Positions 50,398 through 57,790 of a stretch of 64,000 nucleotides of DNA are shown piece by piece; the first letter of the stretch is position 1; every line of letters starts with the position of its first letter. Origin of the DNA: Sutcliffiella sp. FSL R7-0096 (GTDB lineage Bacteria; Bacillota; Bacilli; Bacillales; Bacillaceae_I); NCBI RefSeq assembly GCF_038595065.1, contig NZ_CP152003.1:4692001-4756000 (forward strand). The letters run 5' to 3'. The notes beneath the pieces are model-generated. The model searched no databases and was not told where the DNA came from. It saw only the letters and a program-made list of their open reading frames with translations. The position numbers and the translations under genes are program-made.

Positions 50398-51279
50398 TCA
50401 ATACGTGAGGGTGCCTTTGACTAGCTTTTCCCAGTCTGGGTAGAGGTCGTTGCGGCGGTCACGCCAGGTAGTCACGGATCCACTTTCCCTTACTTTGTAG
50501 AGAAGGGTTAAATCCAGGTCACCGGTGATGATCATATCCGTGTTCAATTCTCCTTCTGCCACGATACCTTTTGGAGGAAATGGTACATCATTTGGTGAAA
50601 TGATGGCAGCTTGTCCAAAGTTTCCTCGCATGAAGTCAACGGTCGGCAAGGAGCCGATTGTTCCTGTTGTCACAACATAGATCTGATTTTCAATCGTACG
50701 TGCGTGGCAGGAATATCTTACGCGATGGAAGCCATGTCGATCGTTTGTGCAGGATGGGCAGAACACCACATCCGCCCCCATTGCCTTCACAAGTCTTACC
50801 GCTTCCGGGAACTCGATGTCATAGCATGTCAGCATGGAGATGGGACCAAAATCTGTATGGAAGATCTTCAAGTCCTCACCAGGGGTCAGACCCCATTCAT
50901 ACACTTCTGTAGGTGTCAGGTGCAGCTTTGCCTGCGTTTCAATCCTTCCATCCGGGTAAAAGAGGTGGGCTGCGTTATAAAGTTTGCCTTCTTTTTCAAT
51001 GATGTGTGTGCCACCGATGATATGCATACCAGTCTGAATGGCAATTCCACTGAACAGCTGCTGATAGTGTTCGGTATAATTCGGAAGGTCATGGATGGTC
51101 TGTTCTCTCCCGTCTACTGGAAAAGAAATCAGTTGGGTCGTCAAAAACTCAGGAAACAGGACAAAATCCGCGTCAAACTCAGCGGCAGTTTTCACATAAT
51201 GAATCACTTGATTCGCAAACTCGTCAAAGCTTGAAATCGTATGCAATGGATATTGCACGGCAGAAGCACGAAACTTCAT
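50398..51279 (-). CDS. Carbon-nitrogen hydrolase (nitrilase superfamily)
   Basis: A 293-residue amidase/nitrilase-fold enzyme. The catalytic triad is visible: Glu in FVLFPEFLTTQL, Lys in KLHLTPTEVYEWG and Cys in MLTCYDIEFPEAVR. Family members hydrolyse amides, nitriles or omega-amides. The substrate here is unknown, although the length and TPTE motif resemble ramnose/N-acyltransferase-neighbour hydrolases. ATG at 51279 follows AAGGGGG. The ORF upstream of it to 51486 is non-coding. Confidence 0.9.
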   Translation of the reverse strand: MKFRASAVQYPLHTISSFDEFANQVIHYVKTAAEFDADFVLFPEFLTTQLISFPVDGREQTIHDLPNYTEHYQQLFSGIAIQTGMHIIGGTHIIEKEGKLYNAAHLFYPDGRIETQAKLHLTPTEVYEWGLTPGEDLKIFHTDFGPISMLTCYDIEFPEAVRLVKAMGADVVFCPSCTNDRHGFHRVRYSCHARTIENQIYVVTTGTIGSLPTVDFMRGNFGQAAIISPNDVPFPPKGIVAEGELNTDMIITGDLDLTLLYKVRESGSVTTWRDRRNDLYPDWEKLVKGTLTY

Positions 51280-51470
51280 GGCAGCAGACCCCCTTAAATC
51301 TATGAAAATTAGTTCATTTGTTAGCCGAAATTCTTTGGTTGCAACTAGTCTATTATAAGGGATGGGAGGCAAAAGGAACAATGATGGATTTTTGGGATGT
51401 TTTGGTAGGTAGGGGAGGGGGAGATTGTTTGGAGGTAGTGCGTGTCGAGTGGTGGCGGTTTGAGTCGATT

Positions 51471-51590
51471 TCCTGATATATTTCAATTTTTCAGGATATA
51501 TTTCAAAAATTCATGATATATCTCTAATTTTCCTGATATATCTTAAAATTTCAGGATATATCCCAAAATTTCAGGATATCTTCTTGCCCA
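51471..51590. repeat. 20-nt tandem array (GATATATC type), copy 1
   Basis: Six units at exact 20-nt steps starting 51471, 51491, 51511, 51531, 51551 and 51571, each TC(c/a)(t/g)GATATATCnnnAAnTT. The same array type recurs at 62831-62950. It lies between the nitrilase start and the HAD gene end. The bases 51280-51470 show nothing else. Confidence 0.88.
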
Positions 51591-55297: not shown

Positions 55298-55346
55298 AAA
55301 AAGCTATCCGGAGGGTTCCTTTCAGAACTCCTGGATAGCTTTTTTA
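55298..55346. terminator. Bidirectional terminator
   Basis: AAAAAGCTATCC and GAG pair with CTC and GGATAGCTTTTTT between the convergent YjiH and ATP-grasp genes. Confidence 0.9.
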
Positions 55347-55354
55347 TCTGCGTT

Positions 55355-56308
55355 TTAAAGGACTTCTGCTCCCTTTAGACTCTCTAACTCTTTTTCAAGT
55401 AATTTTGCAAGCTCTAGCATACCGTACTTGCCGGCTGCTTTCTCAGCGTCTGCATTATAGTTTGTATTTGTGTTGACATCATATGTGTAGATGACGCCAT
55501 TTTCATCGCGGATGAATTCAATGCCCGCTACTTGAATGTTGTTAGCTTGCAGGAAAACCTCGTATTTTTTTATGATCGGGTCGGCAAAGCCTTCCACGAT
55601 ACGGAATTTCGGCTTCTCTTCTACTTCTTCGCCTACCGGGCAGAAAAGATCGCCGATTTGGCAGGCATCCGCCGGGCACAGTTCGAACCCTTCCGATGTA
55701 TCGACTTGGACCGCATAGACAAACTTCCCACCGATAAATTCACAACGGGTGATAAAAGGCTCCGGGGCCTGGATATATTCCTGGATCAGTGTAATGCCAT
55801 CCACCGGTTCTTCAAAATCCGGGCCATAAAGATATTCTTCAAGCGAAGCGGTAGAGTGGAACAATTGTACTCCAAGCCCTTTTCCTGCGCGATTATGCTT
55901 CGTTATAAAAGAAGCTGTTCCGATTCGTTTGGCGGCCTGCAAAATGTTTGATTTCCCTACTGCAGCAATGGTCTTTGGCGTTTTTATCCCGGCCTTCTCG
56001 AGGGCCGTATATTGGTTAACCTTGCTTAGCTCCAACTGCAGGGCGCGGCTGCCGTTCAGTACTTTCCTGTCATGATGCTCCAGCCAAGCAAGTACTGACC
56101 CAGTCAATTCCGGTGCAAAACGATGGTTCCGTGTATGGGAAGAAGCGCTCATTCTATTGTAGAAAACGCCTTCAGGGGGCGCTTCTGTCAAAGGCACCAC
56201 CCCTTCGTCCAGATGCCATTCTTCAAAGGGAAGTCCCAATTCTTCCAGTCTATTTGTAAGATGTGTCGTCCATTCACTATTTTCATGAATAATATAGATT
56301 TTTGCCAC
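55355..56308 (-). CDS. ATP-grasp (RimK-like) ligase
   Basis: A 317-residue ATP-grasp enzyme that should form an amide bond between an acyl phosphate and an amine. It has SKVNQYTALEKAGIKTPKT, TASFITKHNRAGKGLGVQLF (ATP-binding Lys and Gly-rich loop), LIQEYIQAPEPFITRCEFI and the magnesium-binding VAGIEFIRDENG...YDVNTNTNYN. It has a single catalytic domain and no obvious carrier-protein partner. The start is GTG at 56308 (VAKIYIIHEN), eight bases after GGAGG. It is the second gene behind the SAM riboswitch, 38 bases after the monooxygenase gene. The substrates are unknown. Confidence 0.88.
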   Translation of the reverse strand: MAKIYIIHENSEWTTHLTNRLEELGLPFEEWHLDEGVVPLTEAPPEGVFYNRMSASSHTRNHRFAPELTGSVLAWLEHHDRKVLNGSRALQLELSKVNQYTALEKAGIKTPKTIAAVGKSNILQAAKRIGTASFITKHNRAGKGLGVQLFHSTASLEEYLYGPDFEEPVDGITLIQEYIQAPEPFITRCEFIGGKFVYAVQVDTSEGFELCPADACQIGDLFCPVGEEVEEKPKFRIVEGFADPIIKKYEVFLQANNIQVAGIEFIRDENGVIYTYDVNTNTNYNADAEKAAGKYGMLELAKLLEKELESLKGAEVL

Positions 56309-56346
56309 GATGTCTTCCTCCATTTTCTAAAAGTTTTCTGCTGACG

Positions 56347-57399
56347 TTACGCTTTGGCAAGTTCTTCCACTTGAGGGTGGACAAGTGGCATTACCTGTTT
56401 GGCAAAGCGCTCCATCTCCTCTAGTTGTGGGGAGAACTGCAACAACAATAGGTCCACCCCTGCCTCTTCGTATTCTTTTATTCTAGCGGCGATCTGCTCT
56501 GGTGTGCCAACAAGGTTAGGACGCAATCCTCTATTGGATACGGAATAATCCTGGAGCTGCAGTTGCTGTTCTAATTGGGATTTGCTTGTAAAATCCTTAA
56601 ATCCTGCATATGCTTCCGATTCCTTCACATCTGTAATCCGTGCTAGTTCTGCTTGTGCCTCTTCCTCAGTATCCCTGCATATGACATAAGCAGCCATCCC
56701 AAAGGATTGAAACGATTGGTTGGAAGCCTCGGATCTCTTCTCTTTCATTCCAGCAATTTTTGTTGCCACTTCCTCCACGGTTCCGCCATGCATCACATAA
56801 GCATCGCAGTGGGAAGCAATGACCTCTTTGCCTTTTGGACTTTCCCCTCCCGCATAAAGAATCGGGTTGGGACGCTGAACAGGCTTCGGGAAAAGTTTCG
56901 TATCTTTCAGTTGATAATATTTTCCGTCATAACTAAAAGAGTCTTCCGTCCATAATCCTTTGAGTACCTCGATAAACTCCTTTGTGCGATCATAGCGCTC
57001 GTCGTGTTCCGTGAAGATTCCTCCATATTGACGAGCCTCCTCCTCCCACCAAGCAGAAACGACATTCAAAGTAAAACGCCCGTTGCTGATATGATCGATA
57101 TTCGCTGTTGCCTTTGCTGCAATCGCCGGGTTATGGAACCCGGGCCTAATCGCCGTCATAATCTCAATCTTTTCCGTGACAGCAGCAAGGGCAGCCGCCG
57201 TCGACCATGCTTCCAACGTATCTTCTTGCGGTCCTTTAATATCATTTAAAAATAATTCCGCAATCAGTGTTGTATCAAATCCAAGCTGTTCGGCTTGCTG
57301 AATTACTTTTTTCGCATAATCAAATGTCGGAAGCATGTTTTCGTCCTCCACATTACGTAACCATCCGCCGAATACCGGCAACCAAAAACCAAATTTCAT
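56347..57399 (-). CDS. LLM class flavin-dependent monooxygenase
   Basis: A 350-residue luciferase-like monooxygenase. Typical blocks are KFGFWLPVFGGWLRNVED, MTAIRPGFHNPAIAAKATAN, HISNGRFTLNVVSAWWEEEA and NPILYAGGESPKGKE, close to the SsuD/SfnG group that oxidises sulfonates or dimethyl sulfone with FMNH2 and O2. Control by a SAM riboswitch supports a sulfur-related substrate. ATG at 57399 follows GAGGGGG, and upstream in-frame codons to 57456 lie in a repeat. A family A element separates it from its leader. Confidence 0.9.
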   Translation of the reverse strand: MKFGFWLPVFGGWLRNVEDENMLPTFDYAKKVIQQAEQLGFDTTLIAELFLNDIKGPQEDTLEAWSTAAALAAVTEKIEIMTAIRPGFHNPAIAAKATANIDHISNGRFTLNVVSAWWEEEARQYGGIFTEHDERYDRTKEFIEVLKGLWTEDSFSYDGKYYQLKDTKLFPKPVQRPNPILYAGGESPKGKEVIASHCDAYVMHGGTVEEVATKIAGMKEKRSEASNQSFQSFGMAAYVICRDTEEEAQAELARITDVKESEAYAGFKDFTSKSQLEQQLQLQDYSVSNRGLRPNLVGTPEQIAARIKEYEEAGVDLLLLQFSPQLEEMERFAKQVMPLVHPQVEELAKA

Positions 57400-57459
57400 C
57401 TCACGCTTCCCCCTCAATATTTGTTGTAAAGCATTATAGGATATGTCGGCAGCCAACTT

Positions 57460-57592
57460 AGCTGGTGATTATAGCGAAAGGCGAAGACTCCGGCGGGAGA
57501 TTGCGCTTGGGTGGAGACCCCGCAAGTTTGCTGGGGAGACTCCAGCGGCGCCCCCACGGAAAGAGAAGCCTAGCTCGGAAATCAACAACGGT
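57460..57592. repeat. Family A element, copy A11 (inverted orientation)
   Basis: Reads AGCTGGTGATTATAGCG at one end and GAAATCAACAACGG at the other, with GGCGGGAGATTGCGC, GGTGGAGACCCCGC and CCCCCACGGAAAGAGAAGCC inside. It lies between the riboswitch terminator and the monooxygenase gene. Confidence 0.78.
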
Positions 57593-57631
57593 GCATCAAC
57601 AAACAAATCCTTCAAGTGGAAAAAGACAAAC

Positions 57632-57661
57632 AAAAAAACTTCTCCGATAAGAAGAAGTTTG
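57632..57661 (-). terminator. Riboswitch-controlled terminator
   Basis: Minus strand AACTTCT / AGAAGTT hairpin with CTTATCGG in its loop, followed by seven T residues. It lies just past the SAM aptamer. The GATAAG element of the aptamer's P1 can compete for pairing with it. Confidence 0.85.
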
Positions 57662-57790
57662 AGTATGATCCCGTAACATCCACTTATCTCTCAAGAACAT
57701 TTGTCTTGCTGGAATTGGCACCAATACATCATCTGTATGGTTGCCGGGCTTCATAGGGCCAGTCCCTCCACCTCTCTTGATAAGAAAACT
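57662..57790 (-). promoter_or_regulatory. SAM (S-box) riboswitch
   Basis: On the minus strand CTTATC (57783-57788) and GATAAG (57683-57688) close helix P1. Between them are the S-box signatures GAGGTGGAGGGACTGGCCC, GAAGCCCGGCAACC and GGTGCCAATTCCAGC. SAM binding should favour the terminator at 57632-57661 and switch off the monooxygenase/ATP-grasp operon when methionine is plentiful. Confidence 0.93.

Follow-up and report, generated by a model that had tools for sequence, protein, structure and literature searches.

Genes for a flavin-dependent monooxygenase and an ATP-grasp ligase, arranged one behind the other downstream of an S-box riboswitch, were found in the 64-kb stretch of DNA analyzed here (bases 4692001-4756000 of its genome), referred to as the window, and constitute a real and conserved gene pair linked to the S-box. 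The function we favor, at a probability of roughly 0.4, would be that of an S-box-controlled two-enzyme salvage module for organosulfur compounds, with conjugation or activation of a substrate by the ligase and its oxidation by the monooxygenase. The features of the locus are listed from the leader to the end of the ligase gene.

57681..57786, minus strand: S-box (SAM-I) aptamer (RF00162, 95.3 bits, gathering score 44.4, E 1.1e-21)
57636..57660, minus strand: intrinsic terminator (terminator scan)
57455..57610, strand not assigned: interspersed genomic repeat between terminator and start codon
56347..57399, minus strand: LLM flavin-dependent monooxygenase, 350 amino acids (PF00296, Bac_luciferase, 237 bits)
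56309..56346, minus strand: gap of 38 bases with a Shine-Dalgarno-like GGAGGA before the GTG (from the sequence)
55355..56308, minus strand: RimK/LysX-like ATP-grasp ligase, 317 amino acids, GTG start (PF08443, RimK, 27 bits, cut-off 21)
55625..55684, minus strand: loop of the ligase, residues 209-228 (alignment of 45 sequences; pLDDT of the structure model)
55298..55340, minus strand: terminator-like hairpin and T run 3' of the ligase gene (GCTATCC...GGATAGC; by eye, unlisted in the terminator scan with its loop limit of 8)

The first-pass annotation had described an LLM monooxygenase and a RimK-like ATP-grasp ligase 38 bases apart, and this arrangement was confirmed by the Pfam matches and the coordinates. 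The segment marked there ended at the intergenic gap; the ligase gene is located just beyond it. The ATG start of the monooxygenase gene was picked from its homologues, and the GTG start of the ligase gene is backed by an alignment of homologues. Judging from the layout, both genes are probably co-transcribed in the genome of the window. In several relatives they overlap slightly (gap -3), as in translationally coupled genes.

The S-box leader

The match to RF00162 spans all 108 positions of the model and is the only Rfam match above the gathering score within the window. Since the scan detected four terminator-like sites compared to 3.2 in shuffled sequences, at a loop limit of 8, the riboswitch terminator was called because of its position 3' of the aptamer. 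A full S-box aptamer (95.3 bits) and a terminator (57660-57636), both claimed at first reading, are thus present. As a candidate antiterminator, the 3' strand of P1, GATAAG (57688-57683), could pair with CTTATC (57651-57646) in the terminator. Constrained, ligand-free folding of a transcript truncated at this CTTATC yielded -35.2 kcal/mol for the antiterminator versus -30.6 kcal/mol for P1, and in the full leader the two alternatives are nearly equal (-39.3 and -38.5 kcal/mol). According to these folding models, a competing terminator/antiterminator pairing is feasible on paper.

The repeat in the leader is no part of the riboswitch mechanism. It has 42 matches in its own genome (40 of 219 candidates scored), and the idea that it represents a special feature of this S-box was dropped because copies are abundant. 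Its presence stretches the distance from aptamer to start codon to 281 bases; in L015, a close relative, this distance is about 86. Four leaders (L004, L005, L009, and L007/L008) have copies in the interval from aptamer to gene, and three of these leaders belong to metQ (L004), cysH (L009), and metY (L007/L008).

In total, 14 S-box aptamers were detected in the own genome (4.9 Mb). The other S-boxes are mostly found before genes of the classical methionine and sulfur set, namely metK, metE, metI, metY, cysH, metNIQ, metQ, mtnK, and mtnW, gene names being assigned by eye. One S-box (L003, C1:3111913-3112018, minus strand) is found before a gene for a sugar-type binding protein (by eye) with no obvious role in methionine metabolism.

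Conservation of the gene pair

Two sets of loci were compared. The named set consists of the best 80 of 166 ligase loci and is biased to close relatives. The class sample comprises 54 loci after exclusion of L177, a ligase fragment; of the 74 further genomes carrying the ligase, 19 are not represented in it. S-boxes were searched with a model built from 12 S-boxes of the own genome, which was applied to the 80 named loci and 55 stretches of the class sample; absence of an S-box means that none was detected by this model in the stretch examined.

The first-pass annotation had suggested checking whether the genes stay adjacent and behind S-boxes across Bacillaceae, and in relatives the pair and its S-box are indeed conserved. 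In the named set (best 80 of 166), the monooxygenase gene adjoins the ligase gene in 59 of 80 loci, of which 45 are located behind an S-box and 14 are not; among the ligase genes without adjoining monooxygenase, two have an S-box and 19 have none. The class sample contains the pair in 24 of 54 loci: with the monooxygenase gene first, seven have an S-box and ten do not, and in the remaining seven the ligase gene comes first, without an S-box in any of them. Here, ligase genes without adjoining monooxygenase are behind an S-box in two cases and not in 28. Both sets share species, and the summed 83 pairs therefore count some species twice; they also include L086 and L090, in which the monooxygenase seems broken. 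In L086 it was matched in two pieces, in L090 only in short ones.

Adjacency without a detected S-box was observed for 31 of the 83 pairs, seven of them in reversed order; the linkage of the genes is thus no mere consequence of riboswitch control. The cluster of monooxygenases is represented in 80 of 134 loci and the next most common neighbor cluster in 19. Sequence identity to the window enzymes is about 64-96% for the monooxygenases of the pairs and 54-85% for 44 chosen relatives of the ligase. Among 299 genomes of the class, the ligase is present in 75, the monooxygenase in 47, and both in 45 (Fisher p 1e-30, uncorrected for relatedness). The only two of the 47 monooxygenase genomes without the ligase are G125 and G179. 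No monooxygenase was detected in other classes of the phylum at E 1e-90; the two hits in 299 genomes were the window genome and one of its class.

A lack of S-boxes in the respective genomes as the reason for pairs without S-box was mostly rejected, as 32 of 36 genomes searched possess S-boxes, including G002, G233, G089, G242, G196, G040, and G127, in which no S-box was detected at the pair itself; G103, G147, G124, and G244 were devoid of S-boxes. Another known riboswitch or a T-box replacing the S-box was not detected beside the pair (12 loci) or beside the ligase gene (12 more). Psychrobacillus sp. OK032 harbors two copies of the pair about 9 kb apart on one contig (L089 and L094). Directly upstream of these copies no S-box was detected; L094 has one on the opposite strand.

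Proposed function of the pair

In the proposed salvage module, low SAM would lead to read-through at the riboswitch and hence to synthesis of both enzymes. At the expense of ATP, the ligase could couple a sulfur compound taken up by the cell with an amino acid, or activate the carboxylate of this compound, and the FMNH2-dependent monooxygenase would then oxidize the compound beside the sulfur. Sulfite, sulfinate, or a thiol could be freed for cysteine and methionine synthesis. We infer that the two enzymes share a substrate, act in this order, and cleave a C-S bond.

Transporters and other neighbors in relatives suggest, as far as gene content can indicate it, that the substrate is amino-acid-like or a sulfonated sulfur compound. 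The metNIQ genes, with MetQ-family matches below cut-off, are found near the pair in L064 and L091, and a MetY-like gene (by eye) is divergent from the pair in L136. Near the pair of Deinococcus deserti are genes for a cysteate sulfo-lyase, CuyA (535 bits at a cut-off of 450), and for a racemase of the Asp/Glu type. Such telling neighbors are limited to one or few cases each; across the 134 loci, most neighbors are specific to a lineage and carry no information on the substrate.

The sulfur pathway envisaged in the first-pass annotation is supported in part. Conservation of pair and S-box as well as the neighbors related to methionine and organosulfur compounds are in favor of it; the missing monooxygenase beside many ligase genes and the missing S-box at the ligase gene in seven genomes, both described below, are not. 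That no conjugate-removing hydrolase was noticed also counts against the salvage module. More doubtful is a version in which a riboswitch-run ligase would tag a sulfur amino acid or sulfonate and a flavin monooxygenase would cut the C-S bond, the place of the ligase being filled by two ATP-grasp types without significant BLAST similarity to each other and that of the monooxygenase possibly also by NtaA/DmoA-type enzymes (G169, G180, and a haloarchaeon).

Ligase genes without the partner monooxygenase

Of the 134 loci, 51 have the ligase gene without an adjoining monooxygenase gene, and this makes a two-step pathway less convincing. Four of these ligase genes are located directly behind an S-box (L067, L085, L167, and L168). 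In seven genomes with both loci examined, the two genes lie apart from each other (G202, G183, G139, G117, G128, G150, and G182), and no S-box was detected in the ligase stretch of any of these. Of 16 tested genomes with the ligase and without the partner monooxygenase, three (G211, G124, and G244) had no LLM gene at E 1e-25, indicating that the ligase can have some value without a monooxygenase. Genes for dicarboxylate/amino acid symporters, with scores below NCBIfam cut-offs, are found beside ligase genes lacking the monooxygenase on plasmids of Pediococcus as well as in L174 and L176. A Spirosoma plasmid carries an LLM gene and genes for two amino acid permeases along with a relative of the window ligase (31% identity).

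The symporter loci and the three genomes without LLM gene would be in line with another explanation, according to which the monooxygenase alone frees the sulfur. The ligase would then either process the carbon or amino compound that remains, such as a reactive aldehyde or acid to be conjugated, or form a dipeptide or thiol carrier with a use of its own. This explanation appears somewhat unlikely; taken alone, it does not account for L167 and L168, where the ligase gene directly follows an S-box in genomes without the partner monooxygenase.

In G169 and G180, a ligase gene of the window type (type 1) is located directly behind an S-box, and the partner monooxygenase is absent. Both genomes contain two LLM genes each just behind other S-boxes, and the two of G169 are of the NtaA/DmoA type (566 and 567 bits, cut-off 280). 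At L200 in G169, the S-box is followed by an NtaA/DmoA-type monooxygenase gene, then by two reading frames that by eye make up a symporter-like gene, and by a gene for a flavoprotein similar to N-methyl-tryptophan oxidase (438 bits, cut-off 257).

Nitrilase-related genes were noted at two places. A member of this family is located at 50398-51486 of the window, a few genes away from the pair, and an apparent homologue of this gene (by eye) directly follows the solo ligase gene of Anoxybacillus calidus (L043, 7139-7990).

Monooxygenase genes without a type-1 ligase and a second type of ligase

Ten monooxygenase loci not adjoining a type-1 ligase gene were examined, and an S-box is present upstream in all of them. 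In six (L191-L196), the gene for YitJ, a bifunctional homocysteine methyltransferase/MTHFR, is located between S-box and monooxygenase gene; YitJ was confirmed in all six on recounting, and in one of them it scored 773 bits at a cut-off of 453. In G202, G183, and G179 the S-box is found directly 5' of the monooxygenase gene. In G125 the S-box is followed by the gene for a ligase-like protein of 425 residues and then by the monooxygenase gene.

This 425-residue protein has no significant BLAST similarity to the window ligase; it is 44% identical to ligases encoded next to the monooxygenase in D. deserti and D. peraridilitoris. D. peraridilitoris shows an S-box (60.6 bits) before the second-type ligase gene, which is followed by the monooxygenase gene; no S-box was found in the stretch from D. 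deserti. These ligases are annotated in their records as ATP-grasp or carboxylate-amine ligases. The D. deserti protein has a weak match to a Pfam ATP-grasp family (23.9 bits, cut-off 19.8), and no Pfam family was matched by that of D. peraridilitoris. At E <1e-100 the second type was detected in one of the 299 class genomes, G125; nine others match at 1e-31 to 1e-40. In a tree of 85 monooxygenases, G125 grouped with G179 and apart from the Deinococcus pair, with deeper supports of 0.6-0.7, which hints that the pairings in G125 and Deinococcus arose as separate associations. Natrononativus, a haloarchaeon, encodes an NtaA/DmoA-type enzyme just behind a relative of the second-type ligase. Replacement of the type-1 ligase in an otherwise equal arrangement offers independent access to the chemistry.

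These loci also bear on the possibility that both enzymes serve methionine or sulfur supply by separate reactions and are clustered by co-regulation only, which we consider unlikely. Monooxygenase genes found beside yitJ and metNIQ behind S-boxes speak in its favor, as do the four ligase genes directly behind an S-box without a monooxygenase mentioned above. Difficult to reconcile with it are the 31 of 83 pairs staying adjacent without a detected S-box, including the seven reversed ones, and the second ligase type occupying the same position in G125 and Deinococcus.

Relationship to known enzyme families

Regarding the salvage module again, the two enzymes appear to be distinct from the families they resemble, and none of the listed NCBIfam cut-offs was reached by either. 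The monooxygenase matches PDB entry 3rao with E 1.8e-165. It belongs to the same LLM superfamily as SfnG and SsuD, which are the closest curated models, SfnG (TIGR04021) being the best with 292.6 versus a cut-off of 382.95, followed by SsuD (TIGR03565) with 209.6 versus 518.2. Membership in both families was ruled out on these curated cut-offs. Identity to a true SfnG is 36%, and the monooxygenases of the pair form a separate group with conserved residues of their own that are absent from the SfnG compared, such as Arg15, Asn16, Asn52, Asp53, Lys55, Arg85, and His204. Arg226, His228, and Tyr331 of SsuD, which we take to be positions of its sulfonate site, align with Ala, Tyr, and Ser.

Ordinary desulfurization of a sulfonate or sulfone by an SsuD- or SfnG-type enzyme, with the ligase being incidental, is quite improbable in view of these scores and replaced residues. 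The best NCBIfam models would fit such a function, and so would L155, where the pair is flanked by sfnG and ssuABC-like genes (an SsuA-family sulfonate-binding protein with 242.6 bits at a cut-off of 163.5, SsuC-like and ATPase genes). Yet the SfnG of L155 is a true one (573 bits) and present in addition to the pair, which therefore probably does not have the role of SfnG there.

For the ligase, the ATP-grasp fold is apparent from the Pfam RimK domain above cut-off and from a fold match to ArgX (E 7.6e-16). The structure model (mean pLDDT 86.7) has its best fold matches to ArgX, LysX, and RimK, with TM values of about 0.56-0.71 normalized by the model among the 50 matches listed. Apart from this shared fold, the ligase differs from LysX, ArgX, and RimK by 11-18% identity in the fold alignments, by NCBIfam scores below cut-off, and by a conserved cysteine-rich loop of its own. 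The scores are 59.7 versus 143.4 for the RimK family (TIGR00768) and 43 versus 275.6 for LysX (TIGR02144), and membership in both was ruled out on the curated cut-offs. That the ligase is a RimK-type modifier of ribosomal or other proteins, as domain and fold might imply, is highly improbable given this RimK score and a flavin monooxygenase as the recurrent partner.

Glu264, Asp277, and Asn279 are invariant in 45 sequences and, going by the Glu/Asp/Asn motif of ATP-grasp enzymes, may be metal-binding residues. In the same alignment, Cys211 and Cys216 of the loop are invariant and Cys223 is nearly so, giving a motif CPADxC plus a third cysteine. Residues 209-228 are the sole segment of at least three residues with a pLDDT below 50. 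From alignment and model, the loop could perhaps be a metal or redox site. The ligase is strongly conserved yet below every listed NCBIfam cut-off, and as the riboswitch links it to methionine and SAM supply, the question of its product becomes testable.

Comparison with known systems

In B. subtilis, cysteine dealkylation proceeds by protective N-acetylation followed by the action of the CmoJ monooxygenase. The gene pair may be analogous to this route in that an amino acid would possibly be tagged before an LLM enzyme cleaves at the sulfur. It differs in having ATP-grasp ligation instead of acetylation, an LLM enzyme of another group, and no deacylase noticed nearby.

Various genes behind SAM riboswitches in Bacillales probably function in cysteine and methionine metabolism or transport (PMC3766115), and in Bacillus methanolicus S-boxes are reported to precede dmoA, ssuACB, and a two-gene unit without assigned function, BMMGA3_08645-08640 (PMC4342826). 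The S-boxes before dmoA and ssuACB mean that S-box control of organosulfur use is already on record. A description of the pair, or of such a ligase in an S-box regulon, was not found in the accessible parts of the open-licence literature; within these limits, the statement of the first-pass annotation that the ligase is no known member of the S-box regulon is supported. With an ATP-grasp ligase as a member, the system described here differs from the S-box regulon of Bacillus as presented in these sources, which it resembles in the class of riboswitch, the terminator design, and the classical co-regulated genes.
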